Source: Planctomycetota bacterium (GTDB taxonomy: Bacteria; Planctomycetota; Planctomycetia; Gemmatales; Gemmataceae). Taken from it: a DNA stretch of 64,000 bases. Shown piece after piece: positions 3,250 to 21,210 of this stretch; position 1 is the stretch's first letter; each line of letters begins with the position of its first letter. The stretch lies in NCBI GenBank assembly GCA_029777335.1, contig JAKOSN010000171.1, positions 62,001 to 126,000 of the forward strand, given 5' to 3'. Below the pieces are notes generated by a model. It was not told the DNA's origin. It searched no databases and saw only the letters and a program-made list of their open reading frames with translations. The position numbers were made by a program, and so were the translations under genes.

Positions 3250-3265
3250 TATCCCAGGAAACGGA

Positions 3266-4030
3266 ATGACTCCACCACCCATCATCGCCAACCAAATTGA
3301 TATCAAGGGGCATGCTCTCGCAAACCCGACGGGAAGGGATCATGCGCCTGGATATGCTCTTGAAGCTCGGGGATTAACGTTTCTCCGCGGTCGACAGGTG
3401 ATTCTGCGCAATCTTGATCTTGGTGTCTCCCCGGGTGAGTTCGTTGGTCTCCACGGAAACAATGGGGCGGGGAAAACCACACTCTTTCATTGCCTCGCGG
3501 GCATCCTGCGTCCAAACGCTGGCACAATTCACTGGTTTGGCACTCCCGTGTCACGTGTTCCCCACGCACGCCGACTGATCGGCTACCTCGGGCATGAAAG
3601 CGGGCTTTATCTTGCCCTGACTGCCTGGGAGAATCTCCTGTTCGCTGCCCAGATGTATGGCTTGAAGGATGGCGCTGAGCGAACCAGGGAGATGCTGTCG
3701 CTCGTCGGGCTTCCCCTCCAGGCGCACAAAGCGGTAGGGGCTTTCTCCCGCGGAATGCGACAACGGTTGGCGATCGCTCGCGCGGTGATTCATCGGCCCC
3801 GGATACTCCTGCTCGACGAGGCGTTCACGAGCCTGGATGCTTCCAGTCAGGCCTGGCTGGAAGGATTTCTCCGCGAACTCTGCCAGCAGGGATGTGCGAT
3901 TCTCCTTGCCAGTCACGACACCGACCAGAGCCGCAGCCTCGCCGACCGACTTCTCTGTTTACGCTCTGGACAACTTCAGGAAATCCCTCGGCAACCGGGT
4001 GTGTCAAACCATTGCCATGATTGGTCATGA
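3266..4030 (+). CDS. ccmA: CcmA, haem-handling ABC transporter ATPase
   Basis: This 254-residue cytoplasmic ATPase works with CcmB and CcmC to release haem-loaded CcmE. Walker A (GNNGAGKTT), the ABC signature FSRGMRQR, Walker B (RILLLDEAF) and the H-loop SHD are all present. A roughly 30-residue N-terminal extension precedes the ABC domain. ATG 3266 follows an AGGAAA ribosome binding site. The stop overlaps the ccmB start by four bases (ATGA), so the two are probably translationally coupled. Confidence 0.92.
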   Translation: MTPPPIIANQIDIKGHALANPTGRDHAPGYALEARGLTFLRGRQVILRNLDLGVSPGEFVGLHGNNGAGKTTLFHCLAGILRPNAGTIHWFGTPVSRVPHARRLIGYLGHESGLYLALTAWENLLFAAQMYGLKDGAERTREMLSLVGLPLQAHKAVGAFSRGMRQRLAIARAVIHRPRILLLDEAFTSLDASSQAWLEGFLRELCQQGCAILLASHDTDQSRSLADRLLCLRSGQLQEIPRQPGVSNHCHDWS

Positions 4031-4728
4031 ATCGGAGTGTGCTGGCAGTGATTCAGGCGCTGCAACAATTCCGCTGTCTCGTTGTCAAGGATTTGCTGGC
4101 GGAGCTACGCCTCCGCCGGGTTTGGCCTTGCATGCTCTTGCTTGGGTTGCTATTGGTTCTGCTGATTGAGATGCAAATTGACCTCCCAGATGTTGCAAAA
4201 TATCAGGTACTCAGCGGCTTCTTCTGGTTGATTGTGTTCTTTGCCGGAACGTTCGCCCTGGAACGGTCCTTTGCCAGTGAACGCGAGGAAGGATGCTGGC
4301 GTACTCTTCAACTCTATCCGCTTCCACCGAGTGTGCTCTTTCTGGCAAAGGTGACGGTTAATGTTCTGGCGCTTGCCCTGCTAGAATGTTGTTTGATTCC
4401 GGCGTTCGTGGTGTTTTCCAACATCCCTCTTTTGGCTCATCCCTTTTGCCTGGTTGGGATTGCGAGCCTCGCCAACCTGGGGTGTGCAGTTGTCGGTGTG
4501 CTTGTCAGTGCCTTGACGGCGAGTGTCCCACACAAGGGAAATCTCCTTGCGCTCCTCCTCTTTCCGTTGATCACCCCGCTTCTGGTTGGCGCAGCAGCAT
4601 TAACGCAGCAAATGCTCCTCGAAGAATTCACCGAGGAATGGTGGCGCTGGCTTCAGGTTCTCGGATTGTTTGTGGTGTTGTTTTTCACGGTGGGCATTCT
4701 GGTGTTTGAATTTATTCTTGAGGATTGA
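4027..4728 (+). CDS. ccmB: CcmB, haem exporter membrane subunit
   Basis: This 233-residue protein has about six hydrophobic helices and is the membrane partner of CcmA in the CcmABCD complex. An N-terminal amphipathic segment with VVKDLLAELRLRR and the SEREEGCWRTLQLYPLPP loop after helix 2 are typical of CcmB. The ATG at 4027 overlaps the ccmA stop (ATGA). ccmC starts 3 bases after this gene ends. The family is clear from hydropathy, length and gene order. Confidence 0.9.
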   Translation: MNRSVLAVIQALQQFRCLVVKDLLAELRLRRVWPCMLLLGLLLVLLIEMQIDLPDVAKYQVLSGFFWLIVFFAGTFALERSFASEREEGCWRTLQLYPLPPSVLFLAKVTVNVLALALLECCLIPAFVVFSNIPLLAHPFCLVGIASLANLGCAVVGVLVSALTASVPHKGNLLALLLFPLITPLLVGAAALTQQMLLEEFTEEWWRWLQVLGLFVVLFFTVGILVFEFILED

Positions 4729-4731
4729 ACC

Positions 4732-5415
4732 GTGCGCCTGGTCCCTCGATCTCTCTCGTTTGTAGTCCATCTTTGCGTCACAGCAATCCTTGTTGCTGCT
4801 CTGGCCCTGGCTCTGGGGATGTTGTTCCTGTACGCTCCGACCGAAGCGACCATGGGCGATGTCCAGCGCATCCTGTATCTGCATGTGTCCGTTGCCTGGT
4901 GCGGATTGGCGGCCAGTGTTGCAATGGGAGGATACGGCCTCCTGTACCTCGTTCGTCGCCAACTGAGCTACGATCACTGGGCACAGGCCACGGGTGAGGT
5001 GAGTTGGCTTTGCGTCACTCTCACCTTGATCACGGGGTCGTTCTGGGCTCATGAAGCCTGGGGGGTGTGGTGGACCTGGGAGCCACGATTGATGTCTTCT
5101 TTTGTTCTGTGGCTTCTTTATGCCGGGATCTTCCTCACTCGGGGCGGTATCGATGATGTCCATCAGCGCGCGCGGACCGGTTCCATCCTGGCGATTTTGG
5201 CAGTGGTGGATATTCCATTGATCGTGATGGCCACACGATGGTTTCGTGGGGTCCACCCGGTTGCGCCCCGGATGGATGACCGAATGCATCTCACACTCCT
5301 GGTCGCAGCTTTGAGCTTCACCGCCTTCTTTGCCTGTTGTATCTATCAACGTCGTCGGCAACTTGAGTTAACCGAACGCCTCGCTGATCTCTCTGCGCGC
5401 CTGGATCCCTTTTGA
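4732..5415 (+). CDS. ccmC: CcmC, haem transfer protein to CcmE
   Basis: This 227-residue protein has six membrane helices and belongs to the haem-handling superfamily. CcmC binds haem through its WWD domain and two histidines and loads it onto CcmE. The tryptophan-rich motif is VWWTWEPRLMSS (Glu where many CcmC have Asp). Candidate haem-ligand histidines lie in LYLHVSVAW and FRGVHPVAP. It starts with GTG at 4732, directly behind ccmB. Because the partner CcmE carries Cys instead of His at its haem site, the CcmC-CcmE chemistry here should follow the variant System I. Confidence 0.9.
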   Translation: MRLVPRSLSFVVHLCVTAILVAALALALGMLFLYAPTEATMGDVQRILYLHVSVAWCGLAASVAMGGYGLLYLVRRQLSYDHWAQATGEVSWLCVTLTLITGSFWAHEAWGVWWTWEPRLMSSFVLWLLYAGIFLTRGGIDDVHQRARTGSILAILAVVDIPLIVMATRWFRGVHPVAPRMDDRMHLTLLVAALSFTAFFACCIYQRRRQLELTERLADLSARLDPF

Positions 5416-5682: not shown

Positions 5683-6711
5683 ATGATCGGTCCATTGTTT
5701 ATCGGTCTTGCACTGAGCCTTTCTGCAACCCTGGCCATCGACTCCACCCAGCGGATTGAAGGTCTCGTGGTTAATCAGACCCAGGGCGGAATCCCGGTTG
5801 CAGGTGCTGAGGTGATTCTCCGCGCCGGGCAAGATGGTGCGCTCGCGCTGGTTGCTCGGACGGTTTCCGATTCTACCGGCCATTTTACTTTCACCGATCT
5901 TCCTGTCGAACCCGGTGTGAGTTATCTTCCCGGGGCAAATCATCAAGGCATTCACTACCCCGGTTCGCGAATTCCGGCAACCGCTGGGTTTGCTCGTGCG
6001 ATTCTTTCGGTTTCCGACACTTCCACCTCTCCTGATCCACTGATTGCTGAACGGCACGAGCTGGATGTGCTGGCCAAGACCGGCGTGATGGAAATTACGG
6101 AAACACTCGTTATCAACAACCCGACCACTGCCACCTATGTTGGAACTCCCGGAGCAGACGGTCCGCCAACAACGTTGTCCCTGGCCATCCCTTCAGGATT
6201 TGAGCGAATCACCTTCACGAGTGAATTTCATGGCCGGCACTTCAAGGTTGCCGATAACCATCTGGTGACCGATCTGCCCTGGACACCGGGAAAACGTGAA
6301 TTGAAATTCACCTATGCCTTGCCCGTGGAAAGTTCGCATCAACTCTTCGAGCGAACCCTTGATCTTCCCACCCGCTCCCTCACCCTTCGGGTTCACGGCG
6401 CGGTCTCTGGCCAGGTCGTGTCCAATCTCCCCTCGGTTGCTGATGGGAAGGACGGCACCTTCGTGTTTCATGCTGCGAATGAGATGTTGCCCGCAGGACA
6501 CCGCTTGACGCTGGAACTTGGAAAGATGCCCACTCCGTGGATTGTTCACGCGCGCTGGGCTGCCCTTGGTGTACTTGCCGTCTTGATCGTGGGGACCACC
6601 ATCCTGGTGAAACGACGGCGCACATCCCCGGCGCTTGGCGCTCCACTCGTTCGCGCCAGGAATCCTTCACCCATCACTCTCCGAAGGAAGAAACACGCGC
6701 GCGTTCGTTGA
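5683..6711 (+). CDS. Membrane-anchored beta-domain protein at the end of the ccm operon
   Basis: This 342-residue protein has a signal peptide (about 1-18), then a domain like the carboxypeptidase regulatory (CnaB-type) fold, with IEGLVVNQTQGGIPVAGAEV and a TGHFTFTDLP turn. A second beta-rich periplasmic region follows (about 125-285), then one membrane helix (about 291-308) and a very basic cytoplasmic tail. There are no Cys pairs, so it is not a CcmG- or CcmH-type thiol protein. It lies 45 bases behind ccmD and in front of a terminator, so it is probably co-transcribed with System I. A role in apocytochrome handling is inferred only from position. Confidence 0.7.
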   Translation: MIGPLFIGLALSLSATLAIDSTQRIEGLVVNQTQGGIPVAGAEVILRAGQDGALALVARTVSDSTGHFTFTDLPVEPGVSYLPGANHQGIHYPGSRIPATAGFARAILSVSDTSTSPDPLIAERHELDVLAKTGVMEITETLVINNPTTATYVGTPGADGPPTTLSLAIPSGFERITFTSEFHGRHFKVADNHLVTDLPWTPGKRELKFTYALPVESSHQLFERTLDLPTRSLTLRVHGAVSGQVVSNLPSVADGKDGTFVFHAANEMLPAGHRLTLELGKMPTPWIVHARWAALGVLAVLIVGTTILVKRRRTSPALGAPLVRARNPSPITLRRKKHARVR

Positions 6712-7673: not shown

Positions 7674-7899
7674 CAACCGTCTGCCGAGACGTCCGCACCG
7701 GGTTTCACGGATAAGAGCGATCCCCAGGCGAACTGATGTTGCTCTGCGAACACCAGGCTTGCTATACCCGCAGGTCACGCAGATTTGCCCGTGTTGACTC
7801 GATCTCTGTGTGGAATCACAAAGATCTGCAAAAGCTGCTTTGCCGAATTACCTCGCTGAAGCAGGTAGTTCAACCCTCACTCTGTGGAGCCAGGTGCGG

Positions 7900-9888
7900 A
7901 TGTACTGGACCAAGCAAGAGAAAGCCAACCAGCCGAGATGGAAGCGCGGCCTGCGCGGAGCGCTTCAACTGCTCGGTTCTCTCAAACTTGCGGTTGTGTT
8001 GCTCGGCACTCTCGCTGCGGTGATCGCGACAGCGACCATTCTGGAGGCCAATCATGGCCGTCTCTACGCGCAGTGGTACGTCTACCACAGTGGTTGGTTC
8101 ATTGCCCTCCTGGCCCTCCTTGGGGTGAACATTCTGTGCGCCGCTCTGGCCCGCTTCCCGTGGAAACGCCATCAAACGGGGTTTGTGGTCACCCATGCCG
8201 GCCTTCTGATTCTTCTCGGCGGAGCCATCTACAGCTTTGTTGGAGGGATTGAAGGGCAGGTTTCCCTCCGTGAGGGAGAAACCACCACCCGCATGATCAT
8301 GCCCCAGCAGTGTCAGGTCACTGCCACCTGGGTGAATCGCCCCGAGGAACCTCCGTATGAGTTTGCCTTCGAGCCAGGTCCGAGTGACTGGCGCGAAGGG
8401 AAAACCTTGCATATCGGCGAGATCGATGGGATCAGCGCCCGCGTTCTCCGTTACTACAATCATGCCACGGCCGTGGAGGAGTGGGTTCCCGACCGCACCG
8501 AACTGGGGGGCCCCGTGGTCAAGCTCAAGGTGGAAGGCCCTCATGGCACCGACAGCATGGAGCAAACTCTTGCTGATCAGGATTACGGTGATGAGGTGTT
8601 CATCGGGCCCATCCGAACGCAGTTACAGCGGGCGATCTCTGAGGTGATGATCAAGGATTTTCTCACTCCGCCAACAGACAAACTCGGGGAGAAAGGCCTG
8701 CTCCTCGCCTATTACAAGGATCAGGTCGCCCGGATCATCATTCATGAGAGCCTTGGCAAAACGATCCCCATCGGGGATACCGGCGCGGCGGTGCAGATTG
8801 TCCGGTTCATGCCCAATGCTCGGCCCGATGCGCACGGACGCTTTGAATCCATGGGCGACCATCCGCGCAATCCGGTCGTGGAGATGCGCCTGACCATCCC
8901 GGGACAAAAGGACCCCGTGCGCCAGATGGCATTCGCCAAGAGCCCCTTGCTCAATCTCGATCCGGTTTATGAACGCGTTTGCCCGGTGAAGTGTTGCTAT
9001 TTGCATCCGGCGATCAAACCGCCCAACGCCGTGGATTTCATGCAAGGGAGCGATGACGCGCTTTACTGGCGGATTTTCGCCGATGGTCGGCTCGTCTCCA
9101 GTGAAAAGGCGAAACCGGGGAGTACGATCCAGCTGGCTGGAAAGTTTCAGCTTACTGTTGCCGACCATTTGCCCCACGCCCGCGCGAGAATTGTCTTTCA
9201 ACCGGTCGAGGTCGACCCCAACCAGAACGAGAAACCAGAGGCCGCCGCTGAGGTTGCTATTACGGTTGGAGGCACGACACAGACCGTGTGGCTGCAACGC
9301 AATCATCCCTCGCTGGGCACACGTGCAGTGGTCACCTCCGAGGGTCAACTCCAGGTTCGTCTTGGCTATGGGGAGGCGCCCCTGGGGTACGCACTTCGGT
9401 TGGTAGCGTTCAATCGCGAAAAGAATCCTGGCGGAATCGGCAATGCCAGCTATGCAAGCGTGGTCCGTGTTATCGATGAAGGCAGTGGGATCGATGACGA
9501 ATACGATATTTCCATGAACAAGCCCTTAACTTATAAAAAGCTCACCCTTTATCAATCGGGGTTTAATGAAGGGGGGCCGGGACAGCAGGCGTCCACCTTC
9601 AGTGTCGCTCACGACCCAGGACGACCCCTGAAATATGGCGGAAGCCTGATGATTTGCCTGGGGATCGCGATCATGTTTTACATGCGCGCCTACTTCTTCA
9701 AGAATGTCGCTCAGCACTCCTCCTGGTTCACCTTTCGTCGGAACAAGGCGCTGGTGCCCGCCACGCCTGCCAGCGTATCGGCTACCCCGGTGGAGGCAAC
9801 CTCCGCTCCCCAGACTCCCCTGGAGCCTCTCGTCTCCGCGACAAGGAATACCCCTGACAAAGAAGCACCATGCGCCCCGATCTCGTAA
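7900..9888 (+). CDS. resB: ResB/Ccs1-type cytochrome c maturation protein (System II)
   Basis: This 662-residue inner-membrane protein has three N-terminal helices (from GSLKLAVVLLGTLAA, WFIALLALLGVNILCA and VVTHAGLLILLGGA), a large periplasmic domain of about 450 residues, and one C-terminal helix (GGSLMICLGIAIMFYM). That is the ResB (CcsB/Ccs1) architecture. With CcsA/ResC it moves haem across the membrane and attaches it to cytochromes. The helix histidine in THAGLL fits the known haem-path His. ATG 7900 is the likely start; a GTG at 7810 would only add an unstructured leader. ccsA follows 70 bases downstream. Confidence 0.88.
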   Translation: MYWTKQEKANQPRWKRGLRGALQLLGSLKLAVVLLGTLAAVIATATILEANHGRLYAQWYVYHSGWFIALLALLGVNILCAALARFPWKRHQTGFVVTHAGLLILLGGAIYSFVGGIEGQVSLREGETTTRMIMPQQCQVTATWVNRPEEPPYEFAFEPGPSDWREGKTLHIGEIDGISARVLRYYNHATAVEEWVPDRTELGGPVVKLKVEGPHGTDSMEQTLADQDYGDEVFIGPIRTQLQRAISEVMIKDFLTPPTDKLGEKGLLLAYYKDQVARIIIHESLGKTIPIGDTGAAVQIVRFMPNARPDAHGRFESMGDHPRNPVVEMRLTIPGQKDPVRQMAFAKSPLLNLDPVYERVCPVKCCYLHPAIKPPNAVDFMQGSDDALYWRIFADGRLVSSEKAKPGSTIQLAGKFQLTVADHLPHARARIVFQPVEVDPNQNEKPEAAAEVAITVGGTTQTVWLQRNHPSLGTRAVVTSEGQLQVRLGYGEAPLGYALRLVAFNREKNPGGIGNASYASVVRVIDEGSGIDDEYDISMNKPLTYKKLTLYQSGFNEGGPGQQASTFSVAHDPGRPLKYGGSLMICLGIAIMFYMRAYFFKNVAQHSSWFTFRRNKALVPATPASVSATPVEATSAPQTPLEPLVSATRNTPDKEAPCAPIS

Positions 9889-9958
9889 CGGCTTTGAAAC
9901 CAATCGTCAGCGCGGCACAAAACAGGGATTCCCAGGAACCAGGTGGGGAACAGAACTC

Positions 9959-11836
9959 ATGAGGTTTGTCGTTGCTGCATTTGTGGGGTTGGTGACCAGC
10001 AGTCTCCCCGCCCTCGGCTCGGACCCGCGGGGATTCGATTGGAATCGTTGGCGGGATATCCCCGTGCAAAACGGCGGTCGGCAGAAACCGCTCGATACGC
10101 TGGCGTGGGAAATGCTCCGTCTGGTTAGCAATCGTTCCAGTTATGTGGACCCAGAAACCAATCAGAAACTGGACGCCACGGCACTCTATCTGACTCTTTT
10201 CTTTGAATGGCAGGGGTGGGATCATCCGGATCGCGATCAATTGTTGCTGCTCCTGGACTGGCGTCCCCAGTATTTCCATCTTCACAAGCCGGATCGGTGG
10301 GACGAAGCGCCTCTGCTGCGCATTGATTTCCTCGAACTGCGCACCCTGCTGAATCTCGACAAGGATCAACAATACATTTCGCCAGTTGCTCTAAGCAAGT
10401 GCGTGGTGGAAGAACCACAAACTGGTCGCCGAGTCCCGTTCAGTGCCTGGGCAGAGGAAATCAGTCGCCGCGAAGAGAAGGGAAAAAAACAGAGCGAACT
10501 GGAGAAGAAAGCACTCGAACTGGCCCATCGGTACTGGTCTTACCAGAATCACCGCATGGGGCATGAATTTGCCATCCTTCCCATCCAGGGTAACGATGCT
10601 CAGCAGTGGATGCCGATCACGCACCTGCTTCTCACACGCTTCGATAATGCCAACGACCCAACCGGACAGTATCGAGAGATTCAACAATTGCTGGGTGTCG
10701 CCCGCAAGGCATATCACCAGGGCGATGCGGCGACCTTCAACCGCTGTGCCGACGAGTTGAAAACGGTTCTGCGCACACTGGGTTCCGATGTGGGCGATTA
10801 TCCCACTCCGGGGAAGATGAAACTGGAAGTGATTTACAATCAATGGCCTCCCTTTCGTTTTGCCTGGATTGCCTTGTTGATTGCCTCGGTGGGGATGTTA
10901 CTCCACCTGGGGACCAACTGGAGACTCTTTTATGTCGGCTCAATCACTGCCCATGTTGTCGCGTTGATCGCCATGATCGTTGGATTCAGCATGCGCGTTG
11001 GTATCTCGGGTCGCCCCCCCGTCACCAACATGTATGAATCGGTGATTTACGTCGGCTTCGGCGTTGGGGTGTTTGGCTTGGTCTTCGAAGCAATTTACCG
11101 AGCCCGATACATCCTCACGGCCGCTGCCGCTGTCTCCACGATTGCCTTGGTTCTCGCGGATAATAGCCCCACGTTGCTGGATTCTTCCGTTCGCCCTCTC
11201 GAACCCGTGTTGCGCAGCAACTTCTGGCTCGTCACGCACGTGATGACCATCACCCTGAGCTATGCTGCCTTTGCCCTGGCCATGGGAATTGCGAACATTA
11301 CGCTGGGTTACTATCTCTGTGGATCGAACAATCACAGCACCATAAGTGCCCTGAGCCGTTTCACCTACAAGGCGATTCAAGTCGGGGTGTTGCTTCTGGC
11401 CGCCGGGATCATTCTTGGTGGTGTTTGGGCGGACTACTCCTGGGGCCGTTTCTGGGGGTGGGATCCCAAGGAAGTGTGGGCGCTCGTCGCTTTGCTGGGA
11501 TACCTGTGTGTTCTGCACGCGCGCTTCGCCGGGTGGGTCGGGCATCGCGGATTGGCGGCATTTTCTGTGATTTGCTTTTCGCTGGTGGTAATGGCCTGGT
11601 ATGGCGTGAACTTTGTCCTTGGCGCTGGCCTGCACAGCTATGGGTTCGGTGGGGGCGGTCAAGGGTACGTCTACTCCGCAGTCGCCCTGGAGATGCTTTA
11701 CGCTTGCCTGGCGCTCTTCCGGAGCCGACCTCGTGACAGGGACGACTCTGTGAACTCCCCTCCGGCTGAAAGCACACACGAAAAGGAACCGCAGTTGGCG
11801 TCAGCAACGAGCTACACCTGGCCTCCATCCTCCTGA
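9959..11836 (+). CDS. ccsA: CcsA/ResC-type haem lyase with large N-terminal domain (System II)
   Basis: This 625-residue protein has a signal peptide, a periplasmic domain of about 270 residues, then about eight membrane helices with the haem-handling WWD motif WGRFWGWDPKEVWALV and histidines in VTHVMTITLSY and LHSYGF. It is the partner of ResB. The N-terminal domain is larger than in Bacillus ResC but is often seen in planctomycete-type CcsA. ATG 9959 follows GGTGGGGAA and opens a proper signal peptide; the longer open frame upstream overlaps resB and is not used. A terminator follows 42 bases after the stop. Confidence 0.88.
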   Translation: MRFVVAAFVGLVTSSLPALGSDPRGFDWNRWRDIPVQNGGRQKPLDTLAWEMLRLVSNRSSYVDPETNQKLDATALYLTLFFEWQGWDHPDRDQLLLLLDWRPQYFHLHKPDRWDEAPLLRIDFLELRTLLNLDKDQQYISPVALSKCVVEEPQTGRRVPFSAWAEEISRREEKGKKQSELEKKALELAHRYWSYQNHRMGHEFAILPIQGNDAQQWMPITHLLLTRFDNANDPTGQYREIQQLLGVARKAYHQGDAATFNRCADELKTVLRTLGSDVGDYPTPGKMKLEVIYNQWPPFRFAWIALLIASVGMLLHLGTNWRLFYVGSITAHVVALIAMIVGFSMRVGISGRPPVTNMYESVIYVGFGVGVFGLVFEAIYRARYILTAAAAVSTIALVLADNSPTLLDSSVRPLEPVLRSNFWLVTHVMTITLSYAAFALAMGIANITLGYYLCGSNNHSTISALSRFTYKAIQVGVLLLAAGIILGGVWADYSWGRFWGWDPKEVWALVALLGYLCVLHARFAGWVGHRGLAAFSVICFSLVVMAWYGVNFVLGAGLHSYGFGGGGQGYVYSAVALEMLYACLALFRSRPRDRDDSVNSPPAESTHEKEPQLASATSYTWPPSS

Positions 11837-11924: not shown

Positions 11925-12231
11925 CCTCCTTCCGCACCCACTTCATTTCTTTTGGACGGCATCCTTCCACCTCTCCCAGAGGGGTTTGTAGCCAGCGATC
12001 ATCAATCCACCTGACCGCAGAGGGTGTACTGGCGAGTAAACCCATCGATCCAGAACGACCCGGCACGCATTGATAACGAGAAGTGAGGGACATCTTGTAG
12101 GGAAAAACCTTATTGTAAGGGTTATTCTTGAGGGAGAGGACTAAGGGGTTACATGTAATTCAATGATTTTTCCTGCCTGCACGATTATTTGCTTAAGAAG
12201 TTTTATCAAGGACCCGATTGATCCCATATGA

Positions 12232-12244
12232 CGCTAAATTAGCG
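12232..12244. promoter_or_regulatory. Palindrome CGCTAAATTAGCG upstream of the 18-haem cytochrome
   Basis: A perfect 6+1+6 palindrome lies 56 bases before the preferred ATG at 12301. Its size and position suit a dimeric regulator site, but only one copy was seen and no regulator gene is nearby. Confidence 0.3.
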
Positions 12245-12300
12245 CCGCGATTGTGCTGTTTCGATGGGCAGATGAGGGGTGTTCCGTTCGCTGTCCAAGC

Positions 12301-14079
12301 ATGGGGGATTGGATCGTGGGCAACCAGCCAAATGCCGGCAGGACCATTCGTTCGATACTAGGACACGTGCTTGGCTGTTTGTGCCTAGTAAGCACATTCG
12401 CCTGTAGTTCTCCCAAGTATCTCACAACTCGTCGTGGTGACGCGTCGAGTAGTGAAGGGAAGACTGAGCGGGCGGGCCATCACATCGGCCCGAATAAACT
12501 CAAACGGTCGACGGTGGTCATCACCACCTGGCAAGAAAAACAGTTCCCGCCCGTTGCCACCTCGGTCCCGAAGATCGAGGGCGCAGAGATGGTGAATGAT
12601 GACAGCCTGTGCATGACCTGCCACGAACAGTATGTCAAGTATCACCATACCAGCGTGCACACCAAGCAATCGTGCGAAACTTGCCATGGCCCAGGCAGCC
12701 AGCACATTCGCACGCGTGGCAAGGAGCCAAACACCCTCCTGAGTTTCAAACAGATGAAACCAGGTGAAAAGGCTGGCGTATGTATGACCTGCCATGAAAA
12801 GGATGCCTGTGCCCCCGGTCAGAAGTGGCGCACTTCAGCCCATGCCCATGCCGGGATTTCTTGCACCGATTGCCACAGGTCGCATTACAACGTTCCCGCG
12901 GGTACGCCGTCGACCACCGTGGCGGAAAATGGCACGCCCCCGTTGCAACTTGCGGCGGCTCTCCAACCGAAAAAGGAAGAACTGGATATGCAGGCAATCC
13001 GGGAGGCTTCACGCTCCCTGGGAGCGAAGAACCCGGAGACGTGTTTCCGCTGTCACCAAACTCATGCGGACATGCTTAAACCAGGCCACGCCCATCAGAT
13101 TGGTGGACCAGGCGGCTTCAGTTGCACCTCATGTCACGATGCCCATAGCAATGTGACCCAGGCCAACCGTAGTCAGCAATGTCTCCAATGTCACAAGAAT
13201 CATCCTCAGTGGTTAACGTCCAAGCATGCGGAACATGGGGTCGCCTGTGCGGATTGCCATAATCCACACGCGACCAAGATGGATATCAAGAGCGGTGATC
13301 CCAAGACGTGCTATCGTTGTCACCAGCAAAAGACCGAACTGGGGGATGTGGCTCACCCCCACCAGATCTGTGGCGCGATGGACATGAAATGTGCCACCTG
13401 TCACGATCCCCATGGGAATGTTCGTGAGGAAACCCGCACCGACCTGTGCTTGAAATGCCACAAGGGCCATCCAACCATGGCGTGGAAATCGTCTATCCAC
13501 TCGCAGTATGGGGTGGCGTGTGTGGATTGCCATAATCCTCATCCCAGCACTGAAGTTTCCGACTTCGTGGATATCCAGCACACCCACGTTCGTCGGCCCA
13601 GTCGGATGCCGATGTCCGTCGAGGAACCCTTTGTGTGTTACCAGTGCCATGCCAAGACCGCGGCTCAGTTTGAATTGCCGTCGCATCACCCGGTCCGTGA
13701 AGGCAAGATGGTGTGCTCGGCCTGTCATGACTCGCACGGAGCGCAGGAGAAGAACCTGCGCGAACCCACGGTCAACCTGGTGTGCTATCGGTGCCACAAC
13801 GAGAAGTCGGGACCCTTTGTATGGGAACATCCGCCTGTCAGTGAGAACTGCGATATCTGCCACAATCCGCACGGCTCGGTGGTCAACAACCTGCTCCATC
13901 AACCGGCAACGTTCCTGTGCCTGCGGTGTCACGCAGGGCATCGCGGTCAGCGGCGGAATATCGACCGGGTGAACCTGTATCGGCCCGCGTTCTACACCGA
14001 TTGTTCCCAATGTCACTCCCAGGTCCACGGCAGCGATTTGCCCTCCGCGACGCGCGAAGGTCCTCGGTTGACTCGCTAA
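12301..14079 (+). CDS. Lipoprotein multihaem cytochrome c with 18 CxxCH motifs
   Basis: This 592-residue exported cytochrome has an N-terminal hydrophobic segment (SILGHVLGCLCLVSTFAC) ending in STFAC, which fits the lipobox rule, so it is probably a lipoprotein. I count 18 CxxCH haem sites, from CMTCH (near residue 102) to CSQCH near the end, with many paired sites followed by NPH or DPHG. The spacing resembles DmsE/MtrA-type decahaem cytochromes, but those have about 330 residues and ten haems. This one is nearly twice that, suggesting an internally expanded chain. It precedes an outer-membrane barrel gene, as in porin-cytochrome conduits. The start is uncertain: GTG 12253 is also open, and neither has a clear Shine-Dalgarno. 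Confidence 0.88.
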   Translation: MGDWIVGNQPNAGRTIRSILGHVLGCLCLVSTFACSSPKYLTTRRGDASSSEGKTERAGHHIGPNKLKRSTVVITTWQEKQFPPVATSVPKIEGAEMVNDDSLCMTCHEQYVKYHHTSVHTKQSCETCHGPGSQHIRTRGKEPNTLLSFKQMKPGEKAGVCMTCHEKDACAPGQKWRTSAHAHAGISCTDCHRSHYNVPAGTPSTTVAENGTPPLQLAAALQPKKEELDMQAIREASRSLGAKNPETCFRCHQTHADMLKPGHAHQIGGPGGFSCTSCHDAHSNVTQANRSQQCLQCHKNHPQWLTSKHAEHGVACADCHNPHATKMDIKSGDPKTCYRCHQQKTELGDVAHPHQICGAMDMKCATCHDPHGNVREETRTDLCLKCHKGHPTMAWKSSIHSQYGVACVDCHNPHPSTEVSDFVDIQHTHVRRPSRMPMSVEEPFVCYQCHAKTAAQFELPSHHPVREGKMVCSACHDSHGAQEKNLREPTVNLVCYRCHNEKSGPFVWEHPPVSENCDICHNPHGSVVNNLLHQPATFLCLRCHAGHRGQRRNIDRVNLYRPAFYTDCSQCHSQVHGSDLPSATREGPRLTR

Positions 14080-14347
14080 GCCAGGGGAGATGTGTCAGGC
14101 GCTTCCTTCCAGCCTGAAGAACGCCTGACGCATCCCTGCCGGGTAATCTTCCTCCAACTCTCTTTCAGTCCAGGGAAGAGCCGTTGGAGGAAGACTCCCC
14201 TGGTCAAGTTGCCTCCCACCACCGAGCGACTCCCTCCGTTTGCAGCGATTGCCATTGAATCAAGTAACGCCAGGGTTCAGGAACAAATTCAGCCGGGCTG
14301 TCCCTGCGCAAGGCCCCCGGTCGATCCTCGAAATCAGGGTCCCGAAG

Positions 14348-16657
14348 ATGATACGTACAACGGCTGTCTGGTTAGTGGCGTTATCCATGCTCTGCACTGC
14401 CGTTCAGGCACAGGAGCTCCCCACGCCATTCACGGTCCAAGCGGAGGAAGGCGGAGAATCCCAGGCACCCCCTGGTGCGCAAGGTCAGTCACTTGGGGAG
14501 GCCCAGCCAGCGACCGGGTCGGAAGCGCTTCCCCCCGAGTGGGGAGGAGCCCCCGCCAGCGCGACGCCGACCTTTGATCCGTATGAGTTGTTCCCACTCG
14601 CAGGATTTGTTCCACTCCCGGGGGAGGGACGCCTTGATCCCTACAACCTGGGCATTACCTGGGGATTCGACACACCTGAGGGACCAAGTTGGGTTGGAAC
14701 CGGGCGCGAACGCTCTTCGCTGGCCGGGCGTTTTGGATGGTGGGGGACCTCGACGACTGGAAGCGCGACCAAGGTTGGGGAATGGCAAAGCCTCTCCCCC
14801 TCTGCCTTCTGGGATATTGATGGTTTGCAGACCACCGGGGACCGCACTTTCAACTTCTTTGCCACGGGACTGGATAATGACACGACACAGGGGATGTTGC
14901 AGTATTATGGACCTCTGATGCGTGCTCGTATCGATGCCCAGCAATTTCTGCATCGCCTCGATCACGATCCGATCAACAACATCGCCAATCGTCCTCTCCC
15001 AGTCCCCGCGGGATTTTCGGGAATTTACAAGACCGATCTGAACGCGGGAGATAACTATGCCATCCGCGTTGAACAACTGAACGGGGAAATGGTTACCTAC
15101 CTCGCTGATAACGTCAAGTTCCGTGTTCAGTTCTTCGGCATGAAGAAGTTTGGAGATCGTCAGGCAGAGGCGCTCGCCCACTGTTTCCAGGCCCGAGGGG
15201 TTGCGGGACGCAACTGCCACCTGCTGAGCCAGACCCAGCACATCGACTGGACCACTGCGGAGGTGACTCCCCGATTGGAGGCGACCTTTGGGCCAGTGAC
15301 GTTCGAATACGCGCGATTGATGCGCCAATTTACTCAGAACGACCAGGTTGTTACTCGGGATTACAACGGTACTTCCCCGGCCCTGATTTCCGGGACATAT
15401 CCGTATGCCGTGGTGCCGGACATCACGACGCAAATGGATCAGTTCCGTGTCAACTGGGCTGTCGCTGATAAAACCCGGTTCTACGGCTTTGGGTATTTTG
15501 GTCGGATGGATAACTACAACCGTGACATCGAGCGAAACTTCTCGGGCTACGATGTTCGCCTGACCGACTACACGCTGGATGGGGTGATGGTGACTGCCTA
15601 CGCCAAAGGATATCACCAAACCGGGAACAGTCCAAGTGTGCTGCTGACTGATGAACTCCAGGGACTGACCCCAACTCAGGCGAGAGAGAACATTCGGGCT
15701 CCGATTGAATACCATCGCACGAGTGCCGGCTTGCGTAATCGCTACATGCCGTACCTGTCTGCCCCGCTCTTCAGCCACCTGGCATTCACAGGCGGATACG
15801 AGTACGACTACCTGGGGCGGAATAATGCCATCTGGCAGACATCGGGCGAGGAATTCACCTTCAATCAGCCGAGTACGATCACTAACACGCTCTATGTGGG
15901 GGTGCAACAACCCTGGACTGCCACGGTCGACAGCTACGCCCGTTATCGTGTGAATTTCATTAGCAATCCGTTGTATGGATTCCGCGAAACGAGCGGGGTG
16001 CTCAACAGTGGCTTGCCCCAGCAAAGGCATGTTGTTGAGGTGGGGGGTGGTTGGTATCCGTTGGCGAACCTGGGGCTATCGGCCCGTCAGGAAGTGGATG
16101 TCGGCTGGCATGATGCGAACATCTCCGAGGTGCCCGGGAACGTACCGCGTTTCAATCAACAGAGCTATTCCACCAACCTGACGTTGTGGTATGCCCCCAC
16201 GCCGCGACTCGCCCTGGTTGGGAGTGCTGCCTTCATGTCCAACTGGATCGATCAGAATATCACGCTGGGGGATGATTACGTGGAACCTGGTGCCCCCAAC
16301 GTTGGGCTGCTCAATCCCGTTACGCTCCCGTGGTTCTATGGGGGGCGAAGTTCGATCTTCACCGCCCGGGCCGACTATCGATGGACTCCGACCGTCCGAG
16401 TCTACGCAGGGTATGAATTTGTGCATGGCAATGATGCCATCCAGAATCGGAACTTCACCAGTGCGTGGGGGAATCTGGGAGACTTCTCGCAGGTGATCAA
16501 CGATACCCATCGCGTTCTGGCGGGGCTCGACTGGAAACCGACGGAACTGATGAGTGTGTATCTCCGCTACACCTTCTTTGAATATGACGAGGCGAATGCG
16601 TCTTACAACAACGGCACCGCCCACATGGTGATGGCTGGGTTGACCCTCATCCGGTAA
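14348..16657 (+). CDS. Outer-membrane beta-barrel, candidate MtrB/PioB-like porin
   Basis: This 769-residue protein has a signal peptide (MIRTTAVWLVALSMLCTAVQA) and a proline/glutamate-rich linker. The long remainder is aromatic-rich with alternating strands, for example FNFFATGL, YGFGYFGRMD, YARYRVNF and YLRYTFFEYDE. This is typical of a large outer-membrane barrel of the 22-28 strand class. It lies 268 bases behind the 18-haem cytochrome on the same strand. Barrels paired with multihaem cytochromes (MtrB, PioB and the Geobacter OmbB type) sheath the cytochrome through the membrane; assigning this one to that role is inference from context and size. Residues Cys279, Cys290 and His291 (CX10CH) are an odd feature near a QTQHID segment. 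Confidence 0.75.
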   Translation: MIRTTAVWLVALSMLCTAVQAQELPTPFTVQAEEGGESQAPPGAQGQSLGEAQPATGSEALPPEWGGAPASATPTFDPYELFPLAGFVPLPGEGRLDPYNLGITWGFDTPEGPSWVGTGRERSSLAGRFGWWGTSTTGSATKVGEWQSLSPSAFWDIDGLQTTGDRTFNFFATGLDNDTTQGMLQYYGPLMRARIDAQQFLHRLDHDPINNIANRPLPVPAGFSGIYKTDLNAGDNYAIRVEQLNGEMVTYLADNVKFRVQFFGMKKFGDRQAEALAHCFQARGVAGRNCHLLSQTQHIDWTTAEVTPRLEATFGPVTFEYARLMRQFTQNDQVVTRDYNGTSPALISGTYPYAVVPDITTQMDQFRVNWAVADKTRFYGFGYFGRMDNYNRDIERNFSGYDVRLTDYTLDGVMVTAYAKGYHQTGNSPSVLLTDELQGLTPTQARENIRAPIEYHRTSAGLRNRYMPYLSAPLFSHLAFTGGYEYDYLGRNNAIWQTSGEEFTFNQPSTITNTLYVGVQQPWTATVDSYARYRVNFISNPLYGFRETSGVLNSGLPQQRHVVEVGGGWYPLANLGLSARQEVDVGWHDANISEVPGNVPRFNQQSYSTNLTLWYAPTPRLALVGSAAFMSNWIDQNITLGDDYVEPGAPNVGLLNPVTLPWFYGGRSSIFTARADYRWTPTVRVYAGYEFVHGNDAIQNRNFTSAWGNLGDFSQVINDTHRVLAGLDWKPTELMSVYLRYTFFEYDEANASYNNGTAHMVMAGLTLIR

Positions 16658-16674
16658 ACCATGGGCAGAGTGAT

Positions 16675-16730
16675 AAATCGCGTGTCGGGGATTGAGATTC
16701 TCCTCCCTCTCAATTCCCGACACGCGATTT
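16675..16730. terminator. Bidirectional terminator hairpin between barrel and 12-haem cytochrome
   Basis: Two 23-base arms (16675-16697 and 16708-16730) pair with a single G-T wobble around a 10-base loop. The stem base is AAA/TTT on both sides. It lies exactly between two convergent genes, 17 bases from the end of the barrel gene and 43 from the end of the opposing gene. Confidence 0.75.
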
Positions 16731-16773
16731 GTCGTTCTGGGGCATCACAAACGCTTCGAACGCGCATCCGTCT

Positions 16774-18576
16774 CTATGGTTTCCTGGCTCCTCCGGCCCG
16801 GATGACGGCCATCGCCTGCTGACAACGTTTGGCAATCGATTCCAGGATCTCCATGGAATACATCACGTTGTGAACGCCGTTTCCGCGTTTGACTAACTGG
16901 AGATCGGCCCGGGCACCTGTGAGCAGATCCGACGCTTTCTGCCGCGCATCAGGCGTGAGGTCCTTGGCCTGGTCGAACATTTTGCGAGCCTTGTCATAGG
17001 CCTCGTCCGCATCCATGGTGTAGATTTTCAGCCCCTGTTTCCACTGCTCGAAGGTCTTGGTGTAGCGCTCGCCGTGACAGGCGATGCACCCGTTGAGCGT
17101 TCCCTGCAGTGTCTCTCCACCATGGGGTGTCAGCGACTTCTCGGTGTGGCAGCCGAAGCAATTGGTGCGCGATCCAAACATCATGTTTGGCTGCCCATGG
17201 GGTACTCCCTGCGAGCCCTTTCCGCTGAGCAGTTCGATCTGCTCCAGGTGGTGGTTAGGGTGACAGGATGTGCAATTACTCATCGCGGAGGTAAGGAACT
17301 GCGGCTGTCCGGTGGGGGTGTTTCCGCGCGCAAGCTGGTGATGGATCTCGGAATGGCAATCGAGACACTTGGCCCGTTGCTCCGGTACGTGCGCGGCATG
17401 GTAATGCTCCACCTGCGCCAGCGAAAACGGTTCCTTCCACTGTTTGAAATACTCCGGTCGATCATGACATCGTTCGCAGTCGCGGCGAGACACCCTGGCA
17501 GTATCCACTGCGACATCCGCATGACACGCCACACAATCCACCTTGCGTTCGATGATCTGGCGATGATCCATTTTGATTTGTTGTTTCGTCAACTCCGGCG
17601 TTTTTAACTTCTCTCCCAGATCGGGAGGAGTTTTTGGATGGATCATCAGCTCCTTGGTAGGAAGCGTGTGACAAAGGAGGCATTGACTTGTACCAGTGTT
17701 GAAGCCCTCGTTGTGAAAATGACAGGTGTAGCAGGAGGTGGTCTTCATGGAGAAGTGCCCGCGCCGACTGGCATCCTTCCCCAGCAGATCGGGCGTGCCA
17801 TAGGAATGGCAGTTGGTACATTGCATGTCCTTGAGTTGGGCGAGGCGCAGCTGGCGGTGATAGAGGTGTGTCAGCTTCTCCAACTGCTCGGGTTTGACAC
17901 TGGTTTGCCAGCCCCGGACCATCTCAGTCATCTGGTTCATCCGTTGCTTCTGTGGGGTGGCTTCGCGTGCAACGTCCGCGATCCTGTCCAGCTTGTCCTT
18001 GCCGAGGAGCGCCTGGAGCGTCTCGTTGAGTTGCTCCAGTTCTTTTTGGGTGGCTTGTTCCTTCTCGTCTTGCAGTTTCATATGCTTGGCGTGGGTGAAC
18101 TTCACCGTTCCCAGTGACAGTTCCTTATCCATGAAGCGCATGTCGCCATGGCAGTTGCTGGTCAAGCAACTGCGGTTATCCACATGCGCCCGCGGCCGGG
18201 TGGATCCATACCGACCGCTAAAGTAACTGGCAACCTGGCTCAGCCCACGCAGTTTGGCCTTGATCGTGGTCCGTTCGCCGGGTGCGTAATGGCACTCGAC
18301 ACAGGCCACGTTCAGTTTTCCCCCGTGAATGTCGGCCTCCCACGATTCATAGTACGGCTCCATGATGTGGCAGGATCCACAAAACTGAGGCTGACTGGTT
18401 TTGTGTTCCGCCACCGCGAGCAATCCTCCGCTCAGAAGAAGGAGGAGGATCAGGGCAAACAGCAAACGCTTACCCCATCGCATCAGCCGACGCCCCCATG
18501 TCAGGCGGGGTGCTGGCGCGGGCGTGGCCCCGGCGCTGGGGGAAGCGGGGGGTTCGGAGTGTGGTTGTTCTGGCAT
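16774..18576 (-). CDS. NapC/NirT-type inner-membrane multihaem cytochrome, 12 haem motifs
   Basis: This 600-residue protein has a Pro/Ala-rich cytoplasmic start, one membrane anchor (about 37-55), then a NapC/NirT-like opening: CGSCHIMEPYYESW followed by CVECHYAPGE. I count 11 CxxCH motifs plus one CX4CH (CLTSNCH) as the third haem. Between haems 3 and 4 is a charged helical insertion of about 100 residues (KELEQLNETLQALLGKDKLD). A helical tail of about 100 residues closes the protein. NapC-family proteins oxidise menaquinol and pass electrons to periplasmic partners, so this is the likely quinol-side entry of the pathway. It lies downstream of the c554-like gene, separated by a hairpin. Confidence 0.88.
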   Translation of the reverse strand: MPEQPHSEPPASPSAGATPAPAPRLTWGRRLMRWGKRLLFALILLLLLSGGLLAVAEHKTSQPQFCGSCHIMEPYYESWEADIHGGKLNVACVECHYAPGERTTIKAKLRGLSQVASYFSGRYGSTRPRAHVDNRSCLTSNCHGDMRFMDKELSLGTVKFTHAKHMKLQDEKEQATQKELEQLNETLQALLGKDKLDRIADVAREATPQKQRMNQMTEMVRGWQTSVKPEQLEKLTHLYHRQLRLAQLKDMQCTNCHSYGTPDLLGKDASRRGHFSMKTTSCYTCHFHNEGFNTGTSQCLLCHTLPTKELMIHPKTPPDLGEKLKTPELTKQQIKMDHRQIIERKVDCVACHADVAVDTARVSRRDCERCHDRPEYFKQWKEPFSLAQVEHYHAAHVPEQRAKCLDCHSEIHHQLARGNTPTGQPQFLTSAMSNCTSCHPNHHLEQIELLSGKGSQGVPHGQPNMMFGSRTNCFGCHTEKSLTPHGGETLQGTLNGCIACHGERYTKTFEQWKQGLKIYTMDADEAYDKARKMFDQAKDLTPDARQKASDLLTGARADLQLVKRGNGVHNVMYSMEILESIAKRCQQAMAVIRAGGARKP

Positions 18577-18648
18577 ACGCGACCCAGTCCATGTCTTGGT
18601 GAAAGGAACTCACCCAACGCTGCTCTCCTCGTGGGAGTGCTACGGCGA

Positions 18649-18696
18649 CCGCGCGTGAGTGAAGAGCGGTTCCTGCCGCTCTTCACTCACGCGCGG
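18649..18696 (-). terminator. Perfect 21-bp hairpin between the two minus-strand cytochrome genes
   Basis: Arms 18649-18669 and 18676-18696 are perfect reverse complements around the 6-base loop TTCCTG. The structure begins 5 bases after the c554-like stop and lies 73 bases before the next gene's start. There is no T-run on the minus-strand exit side, so it may be an mRNA-stabilising or attenuating stem instead of a full terminator. Confidence 0.6.
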
Positions 18697-18701
18697 TGTT
18701 G

Positions 18702-19244
18702 TTACGGTTTGTCGTACGGAGGATGTTTCTTGTGGGCGCGCGTCAGGTGACAATCGACGCACACATTCTTGGGCTGCATCTTGTAGATGCTACTGCGCAC
18801 ATACTTGTCCTCATCCGCGGACAGTTTCTTTCCCGAAAACTGTTTGGCGATTTCGGAATGCTTACTCCCAGGGCCATGACAGCTCTCACACGAGGCACCC
18901 ACCAGATCCGGTGTGTCGGCGATGCTCTTGAACCCCGTCTCTTCACCGAAGCCCGTGCTGTGGCATTTCAAACACGTCTTGTCTTCCTGATACTTGGCGG
19001 GAAGTATCTCAAACCCCTTGGCATGCTTGGTGCTCTTCCACGAGAGGAGTTGATCGAAGTGACACGACCCACACACCTTGGAACCCACGTACTTCTGTCC
19101 TTCGGGGACTTTCTCAAAGGGCTTGGGTGTCCCCTGGGCCGCAAGTAAACCACGTCGCGCCGTGATCACCACGATTGTGACCGCCACGACAACGGCACCA
19201 AAAAACGCCATCGCTCGCCAGGGGGAGGCATGAAGTGTTCGCAT
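18702..19244 (-). CDS. Tetrahaem cytochrome c554-like protein
   Basis: This 180-residue protein has an N-terminal membrane or signal helix (AMAFFGAVVVAVTIVVI) and four CxxCH sites: CGSCH, CLKCH, CESCH (followed by GPGSKH) and CVDCH. The KYVGSKVCGSCH opening and the SCESCHGPGS motif match the cytochrome c554 domain family, first known as an electron carrier in ammonia oxidisers and widespread in multihaem proteins. ATG 19244 is chosen because GGAAGAGGG lies 5-6 bases upstream; an upstream in-frame start would add 25 non-conserved residues. It is the first gene of the minus-strand cytochrome pair and may shuttle electrons between the NapC-type protein and the outer-membrane conduit. Confidence 0.85.
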   Translation of the reverse strand: MRTLHASPWRAMAFFGAVVVAVTIVVITARRGLLAAQGTPKPFEKVPEGQKYVGSKVCGSCHFDQLLSWKSTKHAKGFEILPAKYQEDKTCLKCHSTGFGEETGFKSIADTPDLVGASCESCHGPGSKHSEIAKQFSGKKLSADEDKYVRSSIYKMQPKNVCVDCHLTRAHKKHPPYDKP

Positions 19245-19926
19245 GGTTTCCCTCTTCCATCTTGTCCGGGGATGCACACCCCAGAGTTCGCCAGCACCAT
19301 GTGCCTGCTCGTCACGCACCTCTTACGTCACTGTTCCAGTTTTTAATCTGCTGCTCCAAACACGAGTTGTCGTCTTCCCGCAACCTCGGTGACTACTGTC
19401 CGAGATGAACAACCGTTGAGTCAGGGGTTTCCCTGCCCTCTTTTTTTCATCTAGTTTGTGCATCTGACCTAATCCGTTGCAGGATATTTGTCAAGCCAAA
19501 ATCCCCCTCCTCAACTCAGCTTCTCTCCTCCCTCATCATTCATTAAGAATATAAACAATGTATGAATATCTTCATTTTCCCGGTCGAACCATGGGACTCC
19601 GACTTTTCTCTTTGGCAGATCGTGAATGCGCACGTTCTCTTCCCGCTCGGTCACGAATTCCTTCGATCTGCCTCATGATCCTCCGAAGATGACCGATCTT
19701 GACACCGGGGCACGTGCCGCTATTATCCGCCGAACCTGGGACATAATCACTCCACAAAGATCGTGTGCGTGAAGGAACTCCATCTGAAGGAGGCGAAGGG
19801 GGTCGGGTTTTCACTGCTTCAAAGTTGTCCACCGCGGAGCCTCCTGTGCATCCTCGCTTTTGTCTTCGCCATGGAGGCCGATTTCCTGTTGCCCGGTCAG
19901 TCACCGCCTTGCGAAGGGGCCACGCA
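19245..19926. other. Divergent intergenic region between c554-like gene and hemA
   Basis: No gene is supported in these 680 bases. The middle (about 19430-19580) is AT-rich, unlike the flanks, and probably holds divergent promoters for the cytochrome pair and hemA. A candidate minus-strand promoter is listed separately. The open frames over the hemA side lack coding character. Confidence 0.5.
19466..19494 (-). promoter_or_regulatory. Candidate promoter for the c554-like/NapC-type gene pair
   Basis: Reading the minus strand, a perfect TTGACA (19494-19489) is followed after 17 bases by TAGGTC (19471-19466), which keeps three of six -10 positions. It would leave a leader of about 215 bases. Weak call. 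Confidence 0.25.
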
Positions 19927-21210
19927 ATGATGATTGCGGTAGTCGGCTGCAGTTTTCGGGACACGCCCATTCAGCTGCGTGAACGGCTCGCGTTCGATCC
20001 GGCCACGCTGGAGCGAACGCTCGATGAGATTGCCCAACGCTTCCAATGCGAAGCCATCATCCTCAATACCTGCAACCGTGTGGAAATTTACCTGGGATGG
20101 GAGGGAGACCGGCCGGAGCCGGATTGCAACCAACTTGTTAAGCTTCTTGCAGAGGTTCACAATCTTCAACCAGAAGTGATCGCTCCGCACCTTTACCAAT
20201 ACCTGGGTGAAGCGGCGGTGCGTCATTTGCTGCGGGTCGCCAGTGGCCTGGATAGCCTGATCCTCGGCGAGGGGCAAATCGCCGGGCAAGTTCGGGAAGC
20301 GTATGAGAAGGCCCGCCTGAGGCAGTGTCTTGGTCCCGTTCTCAACTCACTCTTCCAACATGCCCTGCGCACCGCCAAGCGAGTGCGCACCGAGACAGCG
20401 ATCACCCGAGGGAAGGTCTCTGTCTCCAGTGCCGCCGTGGCATTTGTTTGCCAGGTTTTTTCTCGTTTTGATGATAAGATCGTCCTGGTGATTGGAGCGG
20501 GCAAGATGGGTGTCCTGACCCTGCGGAGCCTGCGCACCCTTTCGCCAAAACAGATTCTGGTCACCAATCGCAGCTGGGACAAAGCCCTGGCCGTGGCGAA
20601 CAGCTGTGGGGGCACCGCTGTCCCGTGGGAGCAACTCGACGAGGTGTTGGCGCTGGCCGATATCGTCTTGAGCACGACTGGCGCCCCTGAACCCGTGGTC
20701 ACCGTCGCACGCTACCAGAAGATCCTTGCACGGCGCACCCGCGGGTCCCTTGTCATACTCGATATCGCGGTGCCCCGAGATTTTGATCCGTCGATCCACG
20801 ACGGCGATCGTACCTGTCTCTTTAACATTGACGATCTCAATCGCATTCGTGACCAAACTCTCGAAGAGCGTCGCAAACACCTCGTCCCTGCCGAGGCTCT
20901 CGTTGAGGAGCAAACCAGGGTCATGTTGCAAGAATGGACCAGGCGCCGTAATGGCCCCGTGATTAAACGATTGACTCAGGACTTTGAATTGAAACGCCAG
21001 GCGGTCGAAGGGCAACTGTTAACCCGCTTGAACGGCCGACTGAGTGAAGGAGAGAAGAAATATATTCAAGGCGCATTTCGATTATTACAGAACCAGATCC
21101 TGCACGGTCCGATCCGTGCTCTGGCGGAGGAATCGAACCGGGTTCAGACCCTTGGAGCAAGACACACTCTGCACGATGCTGTGTGCAAACTCTTTCAACT
21201 CCAGGAGTGA
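19927..21210 (+). CDS. hemA: Glutamyl-tRNA reductase
   Basis: This 427-residue cytoplasmic enzyme reduces glutamyl-tRNA(Glu) to glutamate-1-semialdehyde, the first committed step of C5 haem synthesis. The catalytic Cys lies in LNTCNRVE. SGLDSLILGEGQI and the NADPH-binding segment VLVIGAGKMG are present, followed by the helical dimerisation domain. The length is standard. ATG 19927 (or 19930) begins MMIAVVGCSFRDTP, the normal HemA N-terminus; the open frame upstream is not conserved. Its place behind the cytochrome genes fits the haem demand of 34 haems per set of cytochromes. Confidence 0.95.
   Translation: MMIAVVGCSFRDTPIQLRERLAFDPATLERTLDEIAQRFQCEAIILNTCNRVEIYLGWEGDRPEPDCNQLVKLLAEVHNLQPEVIAPHLYQYLGEAAVRHLLRVASGLDSLILGEGQIAGQVREAYEKARLRQCLGPVLNSLFQHALRTAKRVRTETAITRGKVSVSSAAVAFVCQVFSRFDDKIVLVIGAGKMGVLTLRSLRTLSPKQILVTNRSWDKALAVANSCGGTAVPWEQLDEVLALADIVLSTTGAPEPVVTVARYQKILARRTRGSLVILDIAVPRDFDPSIHDGDRTCLFNIDDLNRIRDQTLEERRKHLVPAEALVEEQTRVMLQEWTRRRNGPVIKRLTQDFELKRQAVEGQLLTRLNGRLSEGEKKYIQGAFRLLQNQILHGPIRALAEESNRVQTLGARHTLHDAVCKLFQLQE

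Follow-up and report, generated by a model that had tools for sequence, protein, structure and literature searches.

An MtrAB-type electron conduit with an 18-haem cytochrome is predicted in a planctomycete genome

Our analysis of a 64,000-nucleotide stretch of a draft Gemmataceae genome (hereafter the window; positions 62,001 to 126,000 of contig JAKOSN010000171.1, assembly GCA_029777335.1, Planctomycetota) indicates that four of its genes, P0001 to P0004, very probably encode a trans-envelope electron conduit with an MtrAB-type cytochrome-barrel pair at its core. P0001 and P0002 were assigned to this type because P0001 belongs to the DmsE/MtrA family and matches only MtrA by fold, and because MtrB is the best match of P0002. 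By profile, the pair is nearest to OmcK/OmcL of Geobacter. A first-pass annotation had placed four conduit genes within 12100-19300, and all four are there. Most knowledge of extracellular electron exchange comes from Proteobacteria and Desulfobacterota; our data suggest that a few planctomycetes, too, can pass electrons to or take them from an external partner.

We characterized P0001 by motif counts, profile searches and modeling. The protein contains 18 CXXCH motifs, a count that is not due to chance, since 500 residue shuffles gave a mean of 0.27 and a maximum of 3. It passes the curated cut-offs of both the DmsE/MtrA family TIGR03508 (287.8 bits, cut-off 192.2) and the narrower GSU2203 family NF041028 (331.9 bits, cut-off 325). 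Its start resembles a lipobox (...LVSTFAC), with a cysteine at the matching place in relatives; the first-pass annotation lists it as an 18-haem lipoprotein cytochrome. The best Protein Data Bank (PDB) chain, both by sequence search and by fold, was 6r2q_A, which was also the sole significant fold match in the PDB for the model of mature P0001. Although the sequence table names this chain as a cystathionine beta-synthase, the entry bears the title 'Structure of the Mtr complex', and MtrA would account for a multihaem chain of 333 residues; we therefore took 6r2q_A to be MtrA. P0001 is best read as a wire within and below the barrel, rather than as an additional surface cytochrome.

P0002 gave 165 bits (E = 3e-48) against NF041027, the GSU2204 (OmcL) profile, without reaching the cut-off of 350. 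By this measure, it is homologous to the GSU2204 family but outside the named family, which a review lists as an MtrB/PioB-like outer-membrane barrel (PMC13188914). In a model built from 68 window and locus sequences (predicted local distance difference test score (pLDDT) 78.9, strands mostly >90), we counted 26 long strands, which equals the published count for MtrB (PMC7198977). As the strand numbers agree, the bore of P0002 is likely similar to that of MtrB. Foldseek ranked MtrB (6r2q_B) first with E = 9.3e-19, ten orders of magnitude ahead of the next matches, siderophore receptors (E = 8.8e-9), and the structural alignment to MtrB has 13% identity. Thus, the large outer-membrane barrel of the first-pass annotation modeled as MtrB-like, and not as the substrate porin that would have spoken against a conduit. 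P0002 has no CXXCH; barrels of its family often have one, and P0002 reads GRNCH there, the first cysteine being lost. A Pfam scan of P0002 gave no match and a PDB sequence search returned only enolase, which we judged a chance hit; the family was assigned through NCBIfam and fold. Searching viral and genome contigs with P0002 alone recovered no relative, as its sequence drifts fast, whereas the cytochrome alignment did find relatives.

To place the 18 haems, we aligned the haem segments. P0001 has all ten canonical positions of the ten-haem MtrA/DmsE family and eight inserted ones, in the order canonical 1-4, two tetrahaem modules, canonical 5-10 (4+4+4+6 = 18), and canonical haems 5-10 bear the signatures SHHPVREGK, GPFVWEHPPV and HGSDLPS. 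Both modules share the pattern CYRCH...H.HQI...CxxCHD.HG...CLxCH...H...GVACxDCHNPH and are 46% identical, with an alignment score of 229 compared to at most 76 in 500 haem-preserving shuffles. The second module shares 57-60% identity with the one module found in 14-haem relatives, and the inserted modules are absent from 10-haem relatives.

A search of species genomes with the cytochrome profile yielded 312 relatives, and the best 80 of the 312 loci were fetched. In nearly all 80, a barrel homologous to P0002 lies directly downstream of the cytochrome, and the top eight cytochrome relatives are from Planctomycetota. In the cytochrome tree, the window groups with seven planctomycete loci in a single clade (Shimodaira-Hasegawa-like approximate likelihood-ratio test (SH-aLRT) 100), and the same eight-member clade appears in the barrel tree (SH-aLRT 100). 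The two genes are adjacent and co-inherited. Next to this clade in the cytochrome tree are 10-haem proteins from a Thermodesulfobacteriota bin, a proteobacterial bin and a third bin, followed by a wider group that includes a Geobacter homologue. As the nearest relatives are planctomycete, we rejected a lone horizontal gain from Geobacter. The first-pass annotation had stressed that such pairings are best known from Proteobacteria and Geobacter. While its conduit reading stood, the phylum is less surprising than it suggested, because the MtrA/DmsE-MtrB superfamily (OmcKL-like) is already spread over many phyla in the cytochrome tree.

Haem numbers differ among these proteins. Exactly 10 haems are present in 63 of the 80 fetched cytochromes, and those that come from outside Planctomycetota have 9-11, in a set chosen by similarity in which longer wires from elsewhere could have been missed. 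Complete planctomycete hits with at least 10 haems have 10, 14, 18 or 22, except for 19 in L031 and L032. Within the eight-member clade, cytochromes carry one module (14 haems) or two (18), and the 19 of L031 and L032 reflects an extra haem near the C-terminus. In loci from other planctomycete classes (L022, L024 and L025), some of the extra haems are instead repeats of the haem 1-4 unit with a CHGP-like signature, and these cytochromes sit elsewhere in the tree on long branches. Since both the repeated unit and the tree position differ, elongation by tetrahaem blocks seems, from these alignments, to have arisen at least twice in Planctomycetota. The 18- and 22-haem MtrA-like proteins of these three loci, which belong to other families of the phylum, are followed by barrels with 4 to 8 CXXCH of their own. 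On another planctomycete contig (L023, G304:C451), three pairs of 10-haem cytochrome and barrel lie inside 16 kb.

The planctomycete periplasm is variable and often enlarged (PMC5394234), and we hypothesize that a longer wire is useful there. A more speculative model, which we regard as possible though doubtful, is that Planctomycetota lengthen the MtrA-type wire in tetrahaem steps (4n+6) to bridge a deep, variable periplasm. The result would be a modular, length-tuned cable in which the outer-membrane wire meets the 12-haem quinol dehydrogenase directly, evolved more than once with two different modules. The 10-, 14-, 18- and 22-haem natural variants of one family could be used to measure conduction against length and the limits on a wire that crosses the periplasm.

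The remaining two genes of the locus encode putative partners of the pair. P0003 has one N-terminal membrane helix, read from its sequence, and its first haem motif is CGSCHIM. The first-pass annotation gave this NapC/NirT-type protein 12 haem motifs. We count 11 CXXCH and one CX4CH (CLTSNCH), and since the CX4CH is conserved in four homologues, 12 is the right number. P0004 has four CXXCH, in agreement with its description as a periplasmic tetrahaem c554-like carrier. Homologues of P0003 stand beside conduits in L037, L032, L176, L072 and L068, and thus also near conduits of Zixibacteria and Elusimicrobia. The P0003-like proteins of L068 (15048-16634) and L072 (18126-19694), from Elusimicrobia and Zixibacteria, have 13 CXXCH and an added CX3CH and lie near OmcK-type conduits. 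P0004 homologues are 54-57% identical in L176 and L037 and 40% identical in L179. We rejected two other assignments for P0003. ImcH has three membrane helices and an adjacent CX3CH (PMC6295460), whereas P0003 has one helix, a CX4CH and no CX3CH; CbcL, MtrH and MtoC did not fit because P0003 contains no cytochrome b domain.

The four genes form two convergent units, P0001-P0002 on the forward strand and P0004-P0003 on the reverse strand (Table 1). The inverted repeat between the units is probably, as judged from its sequence and position, a bidirectional terminator of the convergent operons. A perfect inverted repeat with a 20-bp stem also occupies the gap between P0003 and P0004 (18649-18696).

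Table 1. Positions of the conduit genes and neighboring features in the window (ORF, open reading frame)
Feature	Position	Strand	Basis or remark
P0001, MtrA/DmsE/OmcK-family lipoprotein cytochrome, 18 CXXCH	12301..14079	+	listed ORF from GTG 12253
Two tandem tetrahaem modules inside P0001	13042..13626	+	haems 5-8, ~residues 264-352; haems 9-12, ~residues 353-458
P0002, predicted outer-membrane 26-strand beta-barrel, MtrB/OmcL (GSU2204) type	14348..16657	+	NF041027, model, Foldseek
P0003, inner-membrane NapC/NrfH-type quinol dehydrogenase domain and multihaem extension	16774..18576	-	PF03264, 63.7 bits (cut-off 24.1)
P0004, secreted tetrahaem c554-like periplasmic carrier	18702..19244	-	PF13435, 61.7 bits (cut-off 20.8); listed ORF from GTG 19319
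Inverted repeat AAATCGCGTGTCGGG...CCCGACACGCGATTT	16677..16732	.	strong and long, between the P0002 and P0003 stop codons; read from sequence
CcmF, CcmA, CcmB, CcmC-like (cytochrome c maturation system I)	1186..5415	+	PF16327, PF00005, PF03379, PF01578
Carboxypeptidase-regulatory-like protein	5683..6711	+	PF13620, 31.0 bits, slightly below cut-off
ResB/CcsB (cytochrome c maturation system II)	7810..9888	+	PF05140, 94.5 bits
CcsA-type cytochrome c assembly protein (system II)	9704..11836	+	PF01578, 108.9 bits
hemA, glutamyl-tRNA reductase	19930..21210	+	PF05201, PF01488, PF00745

As the first-pass annotation had noted, the locus is flanked by two cytochrome c maturation systems, both upstream, and by hemA downstream. 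The listed start of the CcsA gene is probably too early. Maturation genes and conduit stand together in several planctomycete families: system I Ccm homologues are near the conduit in L176 and L179, ResB adjoins it in L034, L036, L038 and L176, and CcsA is beside it in L034, L036, L037, L038 and L176. The carboxypeptidase-regulatory-like protein recurs with this cassette (41% identity in L176, 36% in L179). All four conduit genes co-occur with CcsAB in Pirellulales SJ322 (L037) and in G681 (L176), although the annotation had allowed that they might be found together in no relative. Together with its cytochrome and barrel, L037 encodes homologues of P0003 and P0004, a CbcL-like protein and a protein of 1311 residues that matches CcsA. 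L176, from another family, encodes CcmA, CcmB, a homologue of the 5683-6708 protein, ResB, CcsA, the cytochrome, the barrel, two more multihaem proteins, P0004 and P0003, while L179 has the cytochrome, the barrel, CcmF, CcmA, CcmB, the 5683-6708 homologue and P0004. CbcL-like proteins, quinone oxidoreductases with multihaem and cytochrome b domains, are present in the conduit clusters of L037 and L032.

The conduit system is rare in the class. The cytochrome was detected in 5 of 398 genomes of the class sample, including that of the window, across five families, and some DmsE/MtrA-type protein in 21 of 392 genomes of the phylum sample. We detected neither P0001 nor full-length P0002 in 36 further genomes from this family, where the one P0002 match was weak and short. 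Genomes G521 and G616 are the same as those of L036 and L037, as gene coordinates or proteins are identical.

The genome has two hemA copies, the one beside the conduit and C49 48773-50038, which are 64% identical; the same-family genomes searched have one. Perhaps the copy next to the conduit meets the haem demand of the conduit, or the two copies reflect the draft assembly. In line with the first-pass annotation, none of the window proteins that we scanned is a recognizable terminal reductase, of the molybdopterin type or otherwise. Elsewhere, the genome encodes several COX1-family oxidases, and another contig carries NrfH, above its cut-off, with an NrfA-like gene (L130 7323-9320); from this pair, the host can probably reduce nitrite to ammonium. 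Three multihaem cytochromes with tetratricopeptide repeats are also encoded outside the window (L129 8560-10911, L136 7082-10318 and L137 7792-9912).

A model that accommodates these data is that P0003 exchanges electrons with quinone and that P0004, possibly together with P0003 itself, hands them to P0001. P0001 would be a lipid-anchored haem wire of the MtrA/OmcK type, with its last haems inside the P0002 barrel, reaching the cell surface. The two inserted modules would extend this wire on the periplasmic side, and the N-terminal lipid anchor, followed by a linker of ~69 residues ahead of the first haem (mostly pLDDT < 50 in the model), would tether its periplasmic end. Family membership, modeled folds, haem order, joint inheritance of the pair and the recurring gene neighborhood come directly from our data; assembly, electron transfer, direction and partner are inferred. 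Given a conduit, we favor outward flow as the more probable direction, in which, under oxygen shortage, Fe(III), Mn(IV), humics or another cell would receive the respiratory electrons.

Several points weigh against this model. P0001 was modeled with only moderate confidence (pLDDT 64.8) and without haems, and P0002 scores under the NCBIfam cut-off for GSU2204. No adjacent extracellular decahaem cytochrome of the MtrC type, as in MtrCAB systems, was found among the scanned window genes (the rest of the genome was not searched), and no CbcL homologue was found in the genome. The organism also has the usual genes for aerobic respiration, so the contribution of the conduit may be minor.

The strongest rival is that the same conduit runs inward and that Fe(II), a different mineral or a partner cell supplies electrons to the quinone pool and on to oxygen or nitrite reductases, as proposed for PioAB/MtoAB. 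MtrAB homologues can run both ways (PMC10734462), CymA-type proteins have been proposed for both directions (PMC6295460), and OmcKL of bacteria that partner anaerobic methanotrophic archaea (ANME) has been proposed for electron uptake (PMC10553843). PioAB and MtoAB likewise lack MtrC, and the COX1-family oxidases could accept the electrons. However, RuBisCO was not found in the genome (other carbon fixation routes were not searched), and the OmcK/OmcL branch is tied to Fe(III) oxide conditions in Geobacter, where GSU2203/GSU2204 are up-regulated in cultures with hematite and magnetite (PMC4070692). We therefore consider inward flow unlikely, although a serious contender.

Since P0001 falls in the DmsE family, the conduit could instead serve an extracellular oxidoreductase encoded elsewhere in the genome, as DmsEFAB does for dimethyl sulfoxide or iodate, and L033 encodes an 806-residue protein with a twin-arginine-translocation-like start ~3 kb from its conduit. 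As no such enzyme was present among the scanned window proteins or recognized next to the conduit among the listed genes of the other planctomycete loci, we regard this as improbable. Still less probable is that the contig is a contaminant or mis-binned and the locus foreign to this planctomycete. The draft assembly comprises 356 contigs, its contamination is estimated at 4.8%, and the 36 same-family genomes contain no close homologue, but the hemA gene of this contig shares 51-62% identity with genomes of its own family and no more than 50% with others, and all the nearest conduit relatives are from Planctomycetota. From the hemA identities, we judged contamination unlikely.

Porin-cytochrome genes in Planctomycetota have some precedent. 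An iron-oxidizer survey mentions planctomycete PCC4 clusters (PMC5566968), and porin-cytochrome genes of the phylum are listed in a metagenome study of a tunnel (PMC10732223); Planctomycetota are not mentioned in an mtrCAB survey that required MtrC (PMC8805035). Anammox bacteria are the exception to the little study that extracellular electron exchange has received in Planctomycetota (PMC7188810). Our search of the open-licence literature turned up no account of MtrA homologues with 14, 18 or 22 haems, nor of the P0001-P0004 cluster. Together, our results indicate that a small set of planctomycetes from several families has a putative MtrAB-type conduit to which a quinol dehydrogenase and a carrier of its own belong.

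The components resemble known systems to different extents. Like the quinol dehydrogenases CymA, NrfH and NapC, P0003 has one membrane helix, a PF03264 domain and a first haem CXXCH with a methionine two residues on; it differs in being fused to a long multihaem extension, with 12 motifs in total and the conserved CX4CH. PCC3 of iron oxidizers also has a many-haem periplasmic cytochrome that may span the periplasm. However, PCC3 is reported to be non-homologous to MtrAB and to have an extracellular cytochrome and a five-helix membrane protein (PMC5566968), while P0001 is homologous to MtrA. The uptake conduits PioAB and MtoAB share a cytochrome-barrel pair without MtrC, but P0001-P0002 is nearer to OmcK/OmcL by profile and its host lacks a detectable RuBisCO.

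Compared to Shewanella MtrAB (PDB 6r2q), P0001 keeps all ten haem positions of the MtrA family and the HGS at its C-terminal end, and the modeled P0002 is a barrel of 26 strands whose best match is MtrB. The differences are the pair of additional tetrahaem modules that separates canonical haem 4 from haem 5, the lack of MtrC in the window and the low barrel identity (13%). The closest likeness is to OmcK/OmcL (GSU2203/GSU2204) of Geobacter and ANME-partner bacteria (PMC10553843): P0001 is above the GSU2203 cut-off, P0002 matches the GSU2204 profile, the cytochrome gene directly precedes the barrel gene, and the cytochrome has a lipoprotein-like start. Here, P0001 has 18 haems rather than 10, P0002 is below the family cut-off and without the CXXCH of the family, and genes for a NapC-type protein and a c554-like carrier are attached to the locus.

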